Assembly (NCBI GenBank): GCA_020059465.1
Contig: JAGVBZ010000035.1
Span: 62,001-126,000, forward strand
Direction: 5' to 3'
Origin: Brevinematales bacterium
GTDB lineage: Bacteria > Spirochaetota > Brevinematia > Brevinematales > GWF1-51-8
DNA: 64,000 nucleotides
In this document: in pieces, positions 5,976-11,125 of the stretch
How positions within the stretch are numbered: position 1 is the first letter of the stretch
Layout of the letters: the number at the start of each line of letters is the position of its first letter
Made by a program: the position numbers and the translations under genes
The notes under the pieces: generated by a model
Database searches by the model: none
Told to the model about the DNA's origin: nothing
The model's input: only the letters and a program-made list of their open reading frames with translations

Positions 5976-6671
5976 ATGCGGAAAGAATTAATCGATAAAA
6001 CCCTCGCAATTTGTCAATCGGGCGATATCCCTGCTGCGATAGCCTTACAGAAGGAACTTGCCGTACTCAACGACTGCTCGGGAATAGTATATCCGATCTC
6101 AACAGTTGCAGGAGTGGACATCGCCTATGACGGGAACACGGCATACGCGGCCGCGGTAGTCATGGATTATGCCTCGCTGGATATTATCGAGAAAACATCA
6201 TTTATAGAGAATGTTTCTTTTCCTTATATATCGGGGTTATTATCCTTCCGGGAATTTCCTGCTATCCTGAATACTATGAACAATTTGAAAACGCGGCCGG
6301 ATTTATTGATATTCGACGGACAGGGGATAGCGCACCCGAGAAAAATGGGTATCGCCGCGCATTCAGGGATACTGCTCGATATACCGTCAATCGGTTGCGC
6401 GAAATCGCGTCTGTGCGGGGAATATGAACCGCCGGGGAAAAACCGTTTCGATTTTTCCATACTCCGCAATAAGGGCGAAGATATCGGAATTGTTTTACGT
6501 ACCCGGGAAAACACCAAACCCGTGTTTGTATCGCCGGGATATAAAGTGCCGTTCGGCGATTTATTGGAAATAATTCGGCATCTGACGGGGAGTTTCCGTC
6601 TCCCTCTGCCGACACATCTTGCCGACAGGATGAGTAAACAAATCAAGGGGTCAGCGAATAACTCTTCTTAG
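5976..6671 (+). CDS. nfi: Endonuclease V (deoxyinosine 3' endonuclease)
   Basis: Repairs deaminated adenine in DNA by nicking at the second phosphodiester bond 3' to deoxyinosine. The family motifs appear in order: VAGVDIAY (catalytic aspartate), YISGLLSFRE (glutamate and substrate wedge region), FDGQGIAHPR (aspartate), GCAKSRL, SPGYKVPFGD and RLPLPTHLAD. At 231 residues it is of normal length (E. coli 223). The last 21 bases overlap the 3' end of the convergent PHP gene. The start sits directly after a -10 box, suggesting a leaderless transcript. Confidence 0.95.
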   Translation: MRKELIDKTLAICQSGDIPAAIALQKELAVLNDCSGIVYPISTVAGVDIAYDGNTAYAAAVVMDYASLDIIEKTSFIENVSFPYISGLLSFREFPAILNTMNNLKTRPDLLIFDGQGIAHPRKMGIAAHSGILLDIPSIGCAKSRLCGEYEPPGKNRFDFSILRNKGEDIGIVLRTRENTKPVFVSPGYKVPFGDLLEIIRHLTGSFRLPLPTHLADRMSKQIKGSANNSS

Positions 6672-7388
6672 AAACGCCTCTCGCAGCGAGTCGAGGCCGA
6701 TTTCCCTCAACGTACAGTCGAACTCCAACTCATGGAAATTTGTCCCGACCATTTCCGGCGCGTGCGAATCGGAATTCGTGATCAGGGGGTACTTTTTTAA
6801 TATGTCGGATTTAGGCTCTGCATTGAGAAAACGTTTTGTGACCTCGATCGCGTCGTAATCGTACTCCGGCAGGTATCCGATCTGGGAGATGATGCTGAAA
6901 TAGGGGCGGTCGATATGCGACGGGACTGTCAGCCCGCCCGCGGAATGAATCTCCGGGATAAGCTTTTCCAAGGGGAAAGAAGTTGCGAGGTCGCCGCCGA
7001 TATAATTTTCTACTGCACCGGTTATTATCTCGTGCTCATCGACCACTACCTGATCGCCGAATTTAGCGGGGTCGTTTTTTAGTATAGGCAGTGCGGACTG
7101 AATCAGTTCGCCGAATTTAAGCGCCGGGTAGGTGTCATCGAAAAGCGCCAGGACGTGGACTTCTTCCTGAGTAGTGATTTCCATCCCGTAGAAACATCGG
7201 ATATCTTCTCTTGCGTCACAGATACGCTTTATTGTAGGGCAGTTCAGCGCAGAATGATGATCGGTCAGCGCGATCAGTTTTATCCCGTTTATGACCGCAA
7301 GCTCCACAATTCGTGAAGGGGACATTTCCAGCGAGGCGCATGGGGATAGGCAAGAATGGATATGGAGATCGGCGCGGACCCGGATCAT
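6651..7388 (-). CDS. PHP-domain metal-dependent phosphoesterase
   Basis: PHP-type phosphoesterase, related to the RNase AM/TrpH family and to DNA polymerase PHP domains. Metal-binding motifs are visible: DLHIHSCLSPCA at residues 7-18, LTDHHSA at 41-47, a GMEITTQEEVHVLAL stretch near 68, SHIDRP near 157 and TNSDSHAPE near 203. The substrate is not evident. It overlaps the upstream DRTGG gene by the four bases ATGA, and is the last gene of the signalling module. In clostridia and Thermotogae, PHP proteins of this kind lie beside DRTGG and RsbW-like proteins near [FeFe]-hydrogenase genes. Confidence 0.85.
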   Translation of the reverse strand: MIRVRADLHIHSCLSPCASLEMSPSRIVELAVINGIKLIALTDHHSALNCPTIKRICDAREDIRCFYGMEITTQEEVHVLALFDDTYPALKFGELIQSALPILKNDPAKFGDQVVVDEHEIITGAVENYIGGDLATSFPLEKLIPEIHSAGGLTVPSHIDRPYFSIISQIGYLPEYDYDAIEVTKRFLNAEPKSDILKKYPLITNSDSHAPEMVGTNFHELEFDCTLREIGLDSLREAFLRRVIR

Positions 7389-7717
7389 CGGTGAATCGTC
7401 TCGTGGATTTTATATGAGGAAATATACTGATTGTCGCGTGTTTGAACAATCCCGATACCTTCTTTTATTGCGGCATCAAGCATATCTGGGGGAATATCGC
7501 GGCCGTTGCAAATCAGGATTGCATAAATACCCGCAAGCGATGCGACCGCGACAGTGTTTTTATGCGCCTGAATAGTAATCAGAATAGAACCTTCTTCGGC
7601 GTTGCCCATCACGTCGCTGAGGAGGTCGGATGTGTAACCGCAGGTCACATCGGGATCAATTTCCGCAGGGGTGGAGGAAATAAGATGAAGCTTATTAGCA
7701 ATTTCAGAAAGTTTCAT
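7385..7717 (-). CDS. DRTGG-domain protein (second copy)
   Basis: A small 110-residue protein matching stand-alone DRTGG domains, which also occur in some phosphotransacetylases and are thought to bind a small ligand. Key features are the G-x-T-S-D-L-L-S-D-V-M stretch at about residues 27-37 and the TVAVASLAGIYAILICNG region. It is a paralogue of the protein at 10720-11073: both share the S-D-x-L order after the first strand and the region before I-L-x-x-N-G. The ribosome site AAGGAA precedes ATG 7717, four bases after the chemoreceptor stop. Confidence 0.75.
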   Translation of the reverse strand: MKLSEIANKLHLISSTPAEIDPDVTCGYTSDLLSDVMGNAEEGSILITIQAHKNTVAVASLAGIYAILICNGRDIPPDMLDAAIKEGIGIVQTRDNQYISSYKIHETIHR

Positions 7718-7721
7718 AGGT

Positions 7722-9797
7722 TTATTCCTTCAATGACACCGTTTGCGAATTATTGTTTATTTCCTTCGGGTCTATCAGTTTCAGGCTGCCCAGACTGACA
7801 TCGAGAGTCTCGAGTTGATCGCTGATCGACATAAAATAATGATAGATATGGTCGAATACGTCGGTTAGCGCGGTCAGGTAATTTTCCTGGTGTTTTCCCA
7901 CCTGATCGATCTTGGAGGTGGAGGTTTCGAGAGATGAAACCGAACCCATGAGTCTCCGGTTGCTGTCGGCCTGAAACTCAAGGTTTTGTGTAATTCCTTC
8001 AGTGATAGAAACGACACGCTTCATTTCGTCTCCGCTGGAGACCGACTTCTCCCTGTGTCCATCGGCCGCGACCTCGATATCCTTTATCAGCTGGTTTGTC
8101 GATTTTACCGCGTCCTGTATCGAATGCATCGCAATCGACATCGATTTTGCGCGGTTGACCAGCGTCTCGATCTGTTTAGTCATCGAGTTTAGCAAATCAG
8201 CGATTTCAGTGGTCTGCTTGGAGGTGCTCTCGGAAAGAGAACGGATCTCGCTTGCAACCACCGCAAAACCGGCGCCGAATTCTCCGGCATGAGCGGCTTC
8301 GATTGCGGCATTCATCGCCATGATATTTGTTTCATCCGCAATGGAATATATGGTATCGGTAATATCGGATATACTCGAACCGGAATCCCGGATGTTTCCG
8401 ATTGCCTCGTTCATTTCAATGATTGCTCTTGCACCCTCGTCTGCGGAGGTGGTGAGCTTGTTTCCGAATTCCGCCGCCTTTTCAGCCGATTGGGTAAGGT
8501 TTTTCATCGATACGGCAAAGCTTGCGAAGGATTGTCCGGTGTCGCTGATTAAGTGCGACTGCTCCCGGATTTTTGATATATTATCATCGATGACAGTTAC
8601 AAGGCTTTTTATTAAACCCGAGGTCTGGTGGGATACATCGACCTGTTGGCCGACCTCGTTGGAAACCTCCTGCGTCAGGGTCTGTATTTCCTCGTTGGAA
8701 CGCATCAGTTCCTCGATATTATGCTGTTCCTGACGTGTCTGATCGATCAGGCTGCGGGCAATCTTGTATATGCTCAGAAACAATCCGTTCAGGTTTAAAA
8801 TCAGTTGATTGATCAGTACCTGTAATTCCCCGATATCGTCGTCGGTGGTTTTCACGAGGAAGTGTGAAAGGTCGCCTTCCAGATTGACAATGTCGCGCAG
8901 ACGAGTATTGATGCCTTTGATGTGGGATGAAAAATTATAAACCCAGACGCCGAGAATAAACCAGAGAACTGCGATGAAAAGCGCCGATAAACCGGTGAAG
9001 AACAGGTTACGGTAAATGTATTCCTCGTTCATGGATGCTATCATTAAATCAGCTTTTTCTTTTACAACCGGGTCTGAGGACTGTCCCGCTAAAAAAAGAA
9101 ACTCCCGGTATGGATTAGAGAAACCTTCCTTAAAATCGGGATTGACCTTTAATGCGATATGATCCACTCCGCTCAGCGTTTCATTCTGACTGAGTAAAAT
9201 CATCGTAAAACCGATAGAGATCATCAATGTAAATGCGAATACGGTAATCAATGTACGTTTTCTCAGGCTGACAGGCTTGTCCATCAGGTGGAATTCCTGA
9301 ACCTTCATACTCTCTTTGACTTTACGCATGACGAAACTGAAATACTCTCTCTGCAGGATTCCTAAAACCGGGCCTATCGACATGACGACAACAGTAAACC
9401 TGATTGTCGACCATCGTAATGCGCCGTCGGCAAACATAGTTGCGGCTACGGAGAGCGGGGTGACTACCATGAAACCGATGACATTTACCATCATAAAAAA
9501 GCGGTTTATAAACGCTTCTTTCTTTAGAAATAAAACTTTATCCTCGCCGGATAATTGACAATCCTGACCGCATTTTCCGATCAGTTTCACAATGGGAGAA
9601 AGAAGAATCCTTATGATAATACTTACAATGATAAAAACACAGATGATTGATGCGACGGCGGGACCCATTCCCTTCAGCACCATATCGAACGGCAGTCCTA
9701 AAAACGGATATATAATAAAAAATGAAAAAATAACGAATAATATTTCTGAAAGCAGAAAGAAGATCAGCATGGAGCGGACGAGTGGAATTTTTTTCAT
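7722..9797 (-). CDS. Methyl-accepting chemotaxis-like protein with six predicted membrane helices
   Basis: A signal-transducing receptor. The signalling hairpin tip is clear ([20 protein letters not shown], about residues 490-510), with long coiled coils on both sides. The N-terminal half is unusual: six hydrophobic helices (about 10-33, 45-67, 102-120, 131-148, 187-207, 268-290) rather than the normal two, with a short extracytoplasmic loop of about 60 residues between helices 5 and 6, then a HAMP-like region (about 290-345). No CheR-binding pentapeptide is seen at the C terminus. It sits between the CBS-HATPase and a DRTGG gene, which suggests it feeds that local module rather than, or as well as, flagellar chemotaxis. 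Confidence 0.85.
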
Positions 9798-9815
9798 AGT
9801 TCCCCCAATCGGAGA

Positions 9816-10730
9816 TTATTCGCCTGAAATCTGGATCACCGAACGTACGGTGGTTCCTTTTCCTATTGCAGATTCGATCTTAAAATCGTCGGAAACCTTG
9901 ATTACATTCGGGAGACCCATTCCCGCGCCAAATCCGAGTGAACGAATCCATTCGTTAGCGGTGGAAAATCCCGGCTTGATTACCTCGTCGGGATTCTCGA
10001 TACCCGGCCCGGTATCCTCTGCGATCAGCACGATTTTTGAGGGGTCAAGCTCAAGCATCAGCTTCCCGCCATCGGAATGGATTGCAACATTGATCTCCAG
10101 CTCATAGGAGGCAATAGAAGCGCGGCGGATAGTTTTCTGAGAAATCTCCTGCTCCCGGAGCAGACGTTTTATTTCAAACGACGCTCTTCCAGCGTTCTCG
10201 AAATCCAGCTTTTTTATCGGGAACTCCTCGTGAATCTTATTCGCAGAGTGGGCGGGATGTTCTGGATGAATCCTGTCTTCCAGTTCGGTGATTTCCTGAT
10301 TTAATTCCTGTACGAGCGACATCAGAATATCGCGGCTGGTCAGTATCCCCACCAGTTGTTTGTTTTTATCGATTACAGGGAATCTGCCGTAGGAATACTT
10401 ATCGAAATAGGATATGGCGAATGTGAGCGGCATATCGTCCTCGAGAAAGACAACAGACTTGGTCATATGCATTTCAATTGTTTCGTCGATATATCCCTTA
10501 TCGAATGCATTGAGGATATCGTCTACGCTGATAATTCCGAGGAGCCGTTCGCCGTCGACAACCGGGATACCCGAGACCCGTTTCTCCTTCATCATCCTCT
10601 GTGCTTCGCGCAGAGTGTTTGTTTTTTTTGTCATATGTAAAGTAGTGGACATTGCATCCTTTACTTTTAGACGAAGCAGGATTTCAGTGACAACGCTTGG
10701 GAGTTTTTCAAGGGAGATTTTAGAAGCCAT
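9816..10730 (-). CDS. CBS-pair protein fused to an RsbW/histidine-kinase-like ATPase domain
   Basis: Two CBS motifs (about residues 25-75 and 85-145) form a Bateman module that usually senses adenine nucleotides. A coiled linker leads to a C-terminal HATPase domain of the anti-sigma/RsbW type (165-304), with EDTGPGI (N-box aspartate region), GFGAGMGLPN and GKGTTV ATP-lid motifs. There is no phosphorylatable-histidine dimerisation domain, so it is more like a serine kinase or anti-sigma factor than a classical sensor kinase. It overlaps the upstream DRTGG gene by 11 bases. Similar proteins accompany DRTGG and PHP genes in hydrogenase regions of anaerobes. Confidence 0.85.
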   Translation of the reverse strand: MASKISLEKLPSVVTEILLRLKVKDAMSTTLHMTKKTNTLREAQRMMKEKRVSGIPVVDGERLLGIISVDDILNAFDKGYIDETIEMHMTKSVVFLEDDMPLTFAISYFDKYSYGRFPVIDKNKQLVGILTSRDILMSLVQELNQEITELEDRIHPEHPAHSANKIHEEFPIKKLDFENAGRASFEIKRLLREQEISQKTIRRASIASYELEINVAIHSDGGKLMLELDPSKIVLIAEDTGPGIENPDEVIKPGFSTANEWIRSLGFGAGMGLPNVIKVSDDFKIESAIGKGTTVRSVIQISGE

Positions 10731-11073
10731 TTTTCCGCTCTACGGGGAACAGTTTTCCCAATAAAACACATGCCTCGAAGTTATAGTAGGATGTCCATAG
10801 CAGTGTGATTTTCAGCTCGTTGGCAAGTTTTACGGTATCCTCAGGGACATTTTTTCCGTTGGTGAGTAAAATCGCGTTCGCCTCAACCATATCGGCGGTA
10901 CGGACGACCTGCGGGGTTGTCAGCCCGGTAACCAGAAGGATTTCCTCCATATCGGTGGTAAGCACATCGCTCATCAGACCGGATGCAAGCACGCCTATAA
11001 CATAGTCTTTATCGCCCTGATAGAGCACCTTACAGTTCAATAATTCTACGATATCCTGAATACTTACTTTCAT
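10720..11073 (-). CDS. DRTGG-domain protein (first copy)
   Basis: A 117-residue stand-alone DRTGG-type protein: VIGVLASGLMSDVL at about residues 25-38, TTPQVVRTADM, and AILLTNGKNVPE. It is the first gene of the five-gene module, behind a near-consensus promoter in the gap after leuS, and its 3' end overlaps the CBS-HATPase gene by 11 bases, implying translational coupling. The ligand and function are unknown; the frequent pairing with RsbW-like ATPases suggests one protein regulates the other. Confidence 0.75.
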   Translation of the reverse strand: MKVSIQDIVELLNCKVLYQGDKDYVIGVLASGLMSDVLTTDMEEILLVTGLTTPQVVRTADMVEANAILLTNGKNVPEDTVKLANELKITLLWTSYYNFEACVLLGKLFPVERKNGF

Positions 11074-11097
11074 TACATCCTCATATATTGTTCATAG

Positions 11098-11125
11098 ATT
11101 ATAAATCGCACCGTTCTTTTGTCAA
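11098..11125 (-). promoter_or_regulatory. Promoter of the DRTGG/CBS-HATPase/chemoreceptor operon
   Basis: Minus strand: -35 TTGACA (11120-11125), 16 bp spacer, -10 TATAAT (11098-11103). Both hexamers match consensus exactly, so the operon is probably well expressed and independent of leuS. Confidence 0.75.

Follow-up and report, generated by a model that had tools for sequence, protein, structure and literature searches.

Gene content and layout of the operon

The DNA analysed here, referred to as the window, is a stretch of 64,000 nucleotides (64 kb) from a Brevinematales bacterium of the phylum Spirochaetota (contig JAGVBZ010000035.1, positions 62,001 to 126,000). On its minus strand, between positions 6651 and 11073, the list of open reading frames shows five genes that encode, in order of transcription, a first DRTGG protein (DRTGG1), a CBS pair fused to an ATPase domain (CBS-HATPase), a methyl-accepting chemotaxis protein (MCP), a second DRTGG protein (DRTGG2) and a PHP-domain protein. 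The four genes other than the MCP gene are hereafter termed the core genes; they are co-oriented and interrupted by this one MCP gene only. A preliminary description made from the sequence had proposed the same five-gene set, which is borne out by the open reading frames, Pfam matches and predicted folds. The features of the locus are as follows.

11098..11125, minus strand: sigma-70 type promoter, TTGACA-16-TATAAT, 12/12 positions matched in the hexamers, 16-nt spacer
10720..11073, minus strand: DRTGG1, stand-alone DRTGG-domain protein, 117 amino acids (Pfam PF07085)
9816..10730, minus strand: CBS-HATPase, CBS pair fused to a SpoIIAB/RsbW-type GHKL ATPase domain, 304 amino acids (Pfam, fold, motif residues)
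7722..9797, minus strand: MCP with six transmembrane segments, 691 amino acids, genus-specific insertion (Pfam MCPsignal, hydrophobic segments)
7385..7717, minus strand: DRTGG2, stand-alone DRTGG-domain protein, 110 amino acids (predicted fold)
6651..7388, minus strand: PHP-domain metal-dependent phosphoesterase, 245 amino acids (Pfam PF02811, over cut-off)

It is confirmed that the five genes form one tight operon with a strong promoter. The junctions measure -11, +18, +4 and -4 nt in the direction of transcription. Thus, of the earlier wording "tight, overlapping operon", the first part stands, whereas overlap is found at two junctions (11 and 4 nt) and the genes are 18 and 4 nt apart at the other two. 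The promoter, previously described as near-consensus, turned out to be an exact match. In an alignment with two genomes of the same genus, TTGACA is kept identically in both and TATAAT in one of the two. A candidate Rex operator at this promoter (11088-11105, overlapping the -10 element) has three mismatches, and chance alone would yield 3.95 such sites; since its sequence is changed in the same-genus alignment, the candidate was rejected.

Conservation of the four core genes

A scan of the genome collection with CBS-HATPase yielded 33 related loci from Spirochaetota and Kiritimatiellae/Lentisphaerae, which correspond to at most 32 independent ones, as the contigs of L007 and L008 seem to be duplicates from a single genome and L005 and L102 are apparently one and the same contig. 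In 30/33 loci the genes for CBS-HATPase, DRTGG2 and PHP directly follow one another (L012, L024 and L033 are the exceptions); 18/33 have DRTGG1 upstream of the ATPase gene. Orthologues of DRTGG1 within the order and genus share 51-91% identity. From a comparison of gene order, DRTGG1/CBS-HATPase/DRTGG2/PHP is a conserved and widespread four-gene set that appears to be older than the addition of the MCP gene. This agrees with the earlier expectation that, across genomes, the four families would belong together and be tied to hydrogenases elsewhere. In the typical linked arrangement (L015, L036 and L168), a HydA-HydB-2Fe2S-HATPase-HndA operon is divergent from Rex-DRTGG1-CBS-HATPase-DRTGG2-PHP, and partial or rearranged hydrogenase-linked forms occur in L011, L024, L033 and L035. 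Altogether, genes of the HydABC operon are present in at least six of the 33 loci, a lower bound as many contigs are short.

Relation to hydrogenases and low-potential metabolism

A tblastn search (E≤1e-3) detected no homologues of HydA, HydB, HndA, Rnf, the [NiFe]-hydrogenase large subunit, CODH/ACS (carbon monoxide dehydrogenase/acetyl-CoA synthase) or PFOR (pyruvate:ferredoxin oxidoreductase) in the 64-kb window. Two HydA proteins are encoded in the genome itself, along with one sensor-like relative, and HydABC-type [FeFe]-hydrogenase operons are located on contigs 13 and 25. The contig-13 operon has the order HndA - HATPase - 2Fe-2S protein - HydB - HydA, its HydB shares 72% and its HydA 70% identity with the L015 counterparts, and it is preceded by an exact match to what we take to be the Rex consensus. 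Because this operon matches the enzyme half of the clusters in L015 and L036, the module in the window can be regarded as the regulatory half of a split cluster. Such a separation is evidently common among relatives. The idea that the missing hydrogenase is an anomaly was rejected in view of the HydABC operon of the same genome and of the 27/33 loci that are alike in this respect in the DNA examined. Accordingly, the absence of a hydrogenase stressed in the preliminary description holds for the 64-kb window, but not for the genome with its two HydABC-type operons, nor is it special to this operon.

The association was then viewed at the level of whole genomes, in a survey of 296 Spirochaetota genomes of which 55 encode a full-length CBS-HATPase, with Fe_hyd_lg_C scored at E≤1e-20. 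This domain was found in 47/55 genomes with CBS-HATPase versus 119/241 without it (Fisher p 7.6e-7), and, when counted by genus, in 34/37 versus 48/101 (p 1.2e-6), whereby kinship is allowed for at the genus level at most. A catalytic-type HydA (E≤1e-70) is encoded in 46/55 of the genomes with CBS-HATPase, and in 11/55 its gene and that of CBS-HATPase are no more than 12 kb apart, compared with 0.67 expected under random placement.

All eight genomes that have CBS-HATPase and lack Fe_hyd_lg_C carry the set near genes for Rnf, CODH/ACS, [NiFe]-hydrogenase/Hyp or FlpD. The set adjoins Rnf genes in G102, in G078 and at one G114 locus, and hyp genes in G106, in G126 and at the other G114 locus; it is near a [NiFe]-hydrogenase large subunit gene in G138, adjoins CODH/ACS genes in G130, and lies near genes for FlpD and a flavin/NAD subunit in G056. 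HypD was also recognised by Pfam in L156 and L158. These contexts suggest a broad role of the set in low-potential (ferredoxin/H2) metabolism, and we treat them as a strong lead, not as a test.

Two fusion proteins were encountered among the hydrogenase-related genes. On contig 23 of the same genome (L117:6400-8505), a 701-residue protein has a soluble MCP signalling domain fused to ferredoxin clusters and to an H-cluster-type domain (PF02906, 108 bits); judged by its domains, it is a candidate H2 chemotaxis sensor of the HydDB group C2 kind. In the other fusion (L112:5027-6721), a SpoIIAB-like ATPase domain without CBS is combined with ferredoxin and Fe-S domains and a partial domain of the H-cluster type; the gene of this protein adjoins HydB, HndA, PHP and DRTGG genes.

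Domains, folds and conserved residues

In CBS-HATPase, Pfam recognised two CBS domains over cut-off, and HATPase_c scored slightly below it (25.4 vs 26.4 bits). The structural model has a mean predicted confidence score (pLDDT) of 83, with values <50 in the loop 259-270. Its ATPase domain matches SpoIIAB (1til) with Z 19.0 and a root-mean-square deviation (rmsd) of 1.8 over 134 aligned residues at 22% identity, as well as RsbW with Z 15.7, and the top matches are SpoIIAB structures in complexes with sigma-F or SpoIIAA. In an alignment of 25 of the available relatives, the nucleotide-site residues E210, N214, D239-GPGI and R263 are invariant and G266-FGAG (G266-G272) is mostly so; R263 pairs with an arginine of SpoIIAB in a phmmer alignment. 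We presume that these residues include the N-box Glu/Asn and the G-box, with the roles usual for them. The CBS pair model matches structures of AcuB, DarB and CBSX (Z 16-17), the AcuB structures including forms bound to AMP, ADP, ATP or diadenosine tetraphosphate (Ap4A). Sequence and predicted fold thus support the assignment of the CBS pair to the adenine-nucleotide-binding class, in line with the initial suggestion that it may read the adenine-nucleotide state. Moreover, the regulatory region of a CBS-pyrophosphatase is matched by both the CBS and the DRTGG proteins of the window.

DRTGG1 scores over the Pfam cut-off (27.0 vs 25.2 bits), DRTGG2 below it (18.1 bits), and the two share 31% identity over 74 amino acids. 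The DRTGG2 model (pLDDT 97.3) matches the DRTGG protein AF1212 (2ioj; Z 15.1, rmsd 2.4, 110 residues) and the DRTGG domain of a CBS-pyrophosphatase (3l2b; Z 13.4). Because of these fold matches, the assignments of DRTGG2 and HATPase_c hold despite Pfam scores below cut-off. A single serine, Ser35 in DRTGG1 and Ser34 in DRTGG2, is invariant in 22 DRTGG sequences of both paralogues (the DRTGG1 alignment being without a G003 row) and is a candidate phospho-acceptor.

The expected metal-ligand residues of the PHP protein (D7, H9, H11, D43, H44, E70, H78, H158, D207 and H209) are invariant in an alignment of 17 of the available relatives. Its best profile match in the PDB is Endonuclease Q, an identity that would echo the adjoining endonuclease V gene. 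We give this identity little weight, as the PHP protein has 245 residues vs 400 in the Endonuclease Q chain, and the endonuclease V neighbour was noticed in this genus only, among the loci read. This convergent endonuclease V-like gene, presumably nfi, shares 21 bp with the 3' end of the PHP gene (window positions 6651-6671).

The chemoreceptor

The MCP has an MCPsignal domain (Pfam, 5.2e-27) and six hydrophobic segments, which corroborates the proposed six-helix chemoreceptor between the ATPase and the second DRTGG protein. A loop of about 65 residues lies between the fifth and sixth segments, and no Pfam sensor domain was matched. Six CheW-domain matches are found in the genome. Two genomes of the same genus, G002 and G003, share the complete five-gene arrangement, with identities of 90% and 80% for CBS-HATPase and 85% and 70% for the MCP, respectively; a third (G001, 73% complete) gave no match. 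An MCP gene between those for ATPase and DRTGG2 is present in 0/33 related loci and in none of the four genomes of the same order (G004, G007, G008 and G010), all of which carry the four core genes. An ancient role of the MCP as part of the module was rejected on these grounds. As it is absent in the relatives and present in 2/2 same-genus genomes with the set, the MCP gene is, to judge from gene order, one lineage-specific insertion that took place in this genus and was then kept. Relative to G002, dN (nonsynonymous substitutions per site) is 0.093 and dS (synonymous) is 2.8 and saturated, within the range of neighbouring genes. The low dN against a saturated dS argues for purifying selection on a receptor that is kept and not decaying. 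A chance insertion evident from relatives, which the preliminary description had named as a refutation of its reading, is therefore upheld as far as the insertion goes, whereas the low dN speaks against decay.

Could the chemoreceptor be a passenger, i.e. one of many MCP genes that landed in the ancestral operon and merely uses its promoter? We take this as a serious contender, though one that we hesitate to adopt. The restriction to one genus fits it well, and so does the finding that full-length homologues with more than 30% identity outside the genus occur only in G031 and G042 (33-34%), away from the module; given the abundance of MCP genes in these genomes, a single landing would be cheap. 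Against the passenger explanation, three genomes keep the gene in place with nearly abutting junctions and the low dN given above.

Two further observations, both of which could be due to chance, would also speak against a passenger. At L164:5303-8447 (G173, an unrelated family), genes for DRTGG and CBS-HATPase are directly followed by that of another, unrelated membrane MCP, which has several transmembrane segments and no large extracellular domain. Because MCPs are so common, this proximity is near chance by our estimate and is not taken as functional evidence. In 5/33 loci (L017, L021, L022, L023 and L030), the genes next downstream of PHP encode a large histidine kinase and, with it, a response regulator; 7TMR-DISM sensor domains are part of the kinase in L030. 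The MCPs of L015 and L036 are located about 4 kb downstream of PHP with other genes between, and are only partially similar to the MCP of the window (25-27% identity).

A model for the module

We lean, with modest confidence, towards an adenine-nucleotide-gated, anti-sigma-type kinase module that regulates H2/ferredoxin enzymes and has recruited the receptor as an input or output. The four core genes would form a signalling module tuning low-potential electron metabolism (H2/ferredoxin/NAD(H)). The CBS pair may sense adenine nucleotides (AMP/ADP/ATP or Ap4A) and gate the SpoIIAB/RsbW-type protein-kinase domain, for which the two DRTGG proteins would serve as partners or substrates. The PHP protein could be the opposing metal-dependent phosphatase, or else remove the nucleotide signal. 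The probable target is the HydABC-type [FeFe]-hydrogenase together with related ferredoxin-linked enzymes, whose genes adjoin the set in many relatives and are on other contigs here. The MCP, inserted and kept most likely for joint production with the module, may make the chemotaxis array responsive to the energy or redox state.

Several points weigh against this model. Fe_hyd_lg_C is present in 119/241 genomes without CBS-HATPase, hence the latter is not required for hydrogenase use. The categories for the eight exceptional genomes were set after viewing, and a single genus accounts for six of these genomes. The module is unlinked to hydrogenase in this genome, and 27/33 related loci have no HydABC-operon gene in the DNA examined, many contigs being short. 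A Rex-like site with two or fewer mismatches to the presumed consensus occurs nowhere in the window. None of the five window proteins is recognised by Pfam as a STAS protein, the usual substrate of SpoIIAB/RsbW, and no measured activity, ligand or interaction of any module member was found in the literature. Finally, the MCP goes back to a single insertion event, so its recruitment by chance is possible.

A more far-reaching version of the model strikes us as speculative and improbable as a whole. It would have a new partner-switching circuit in which DRTGG replaces the STAS substrate, PHP replaces PP2C, and the CBS-gated kinase reads Ap4A or adenylate charge; this circuit would govern [FeFe]- and [NiFe]-hydrogenases, Rnf and CODH/ACS and be wired to the chemotaxis array through the receptor.

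Equally doubtful is a transcriptional anti-sigma system, in which the ATPase domain would bind a sigma factor and DRTGG would act as anti-anti-sigma factor in place of STAS. The best fold match to SpoIIAB with sigma-F or SpoIIAA and the alignment of the invariant R263 with a SpoIIAB arginine are what one would expect from it. Yet neither the set nor the genes conserved beside it include a recognisable sigma-factor gene, and the adjoining regulator is Rex, a classical repressor. Less probable again are accessory or assembly factors of hydrogenase-type Fe-S enzymes, with ATPase-driven chaperoning and PHP and DRTGG as helpers: hypA/D/E maturation genes nearby in four genomes without Fe_hyd_lg_C and the fusion of ATPase, ferredoxin and H-cluster-like domains in L112 would suit such a role, whereas CBS and DRTGG domains have regulatory functions where they occur in known proteins, and about half of the genomes without CBS-HATPase possess Fe_hyd_lg_C proteins.

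Comparison with known systems

Owing to the fold matches, the nearest mechanistic models for the nucleotide-gated kinase module are SpoIIAB/RsbW, the CBS-DRTGG-regulated pyrophosphatase and AcuB. The SpoIIAB/RsbW anti-sigma serine kinases resemble the window ATPase in fold and GHKL nucleotide-site residues; in contrast to them, the window protein has an N-terminal CBS pair, its set includes neither a STAS substrate nor a sigma factor, and its kinase activity is putative. The regulatory region of family II pyrophosphatase (PDB 3l2b, 3l31) uses CBS and DRTGG together, as in the window, but in one chain with a pyrophosphatase, whereas here they are on separate polypeptides and accompanied by a kinase-type domain. 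According to the available part of the report on AcuB, its CBS pair binds Ap4A; the fold is common with the window protein, for which the role as adenine-nucleotide adaptor is a borrowed model, while AcuB has an ACT domain where the window protein has GHKL, and targets the deacetylase AcuC (PMC13039410).

That genes of kinase, phosphatase and PHP type occur next to bifurcating hydrogenases is already in print, and the accessible portions of the two accounts assign no mechanism to them (PMC3492117, PMC4237134). In the former, kinases, phosphatases and PAS sensors are placed upstream of the hydrogenases and regulation by H2 or redox state is proposed; the latter lists an operon of Halanaerobium in which genes for PHP and for an "anti-sigma" kinase adjoin those of the hydrogenase. 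As far as these texts go, the HydABC/Hnd-linked sets Halsa_1862-1871 of Halanaerobium (PMC4237134) and Cthe_0340-0342 of Clostridium thermocellum (PMC3492117) are hydrogenase-linked kin of the window set, which differs in standing alone, in the MCP inside it and in the fusion of the ATPase to a CBS pair. Group C2 [FeFe]-hydrogenases, tabulated as "chemotactic (putative)" in the part of the classification at hand (PMC5037454), offer an H2-linked protein coupled to MCP signalling, of which this genome has the candidate on contig 23; the window MCP, by contrast, is membrane-bound and without a hydrogenase domain. A full-text literature search, with few subscription journals covered, returned no paper in which the four genes are described as a unit or are reported beside Rnf, [NiFe]-hydrogenase or CODH/ACS genes.

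In conclusion, the set is real and conserved and represents a putative signalling module, and the MCP is a lineage-specific addition with a putative functional tie. The CBS-fused SpoIIAB/RsbW-type ATPase and the proximity of the set to genes for [NiFe]-hydrogenase, Rnf and CODH/ACS in genomes that lack the [FeFe]-hydrogenase turn a vague association into a testable circuit, and raise the questions of which nucleotide, which substrate and which enzyme are involved. The insertion of the receptor gene represents a natural case for asking whether the energy state feeds directly into chemotaxis.

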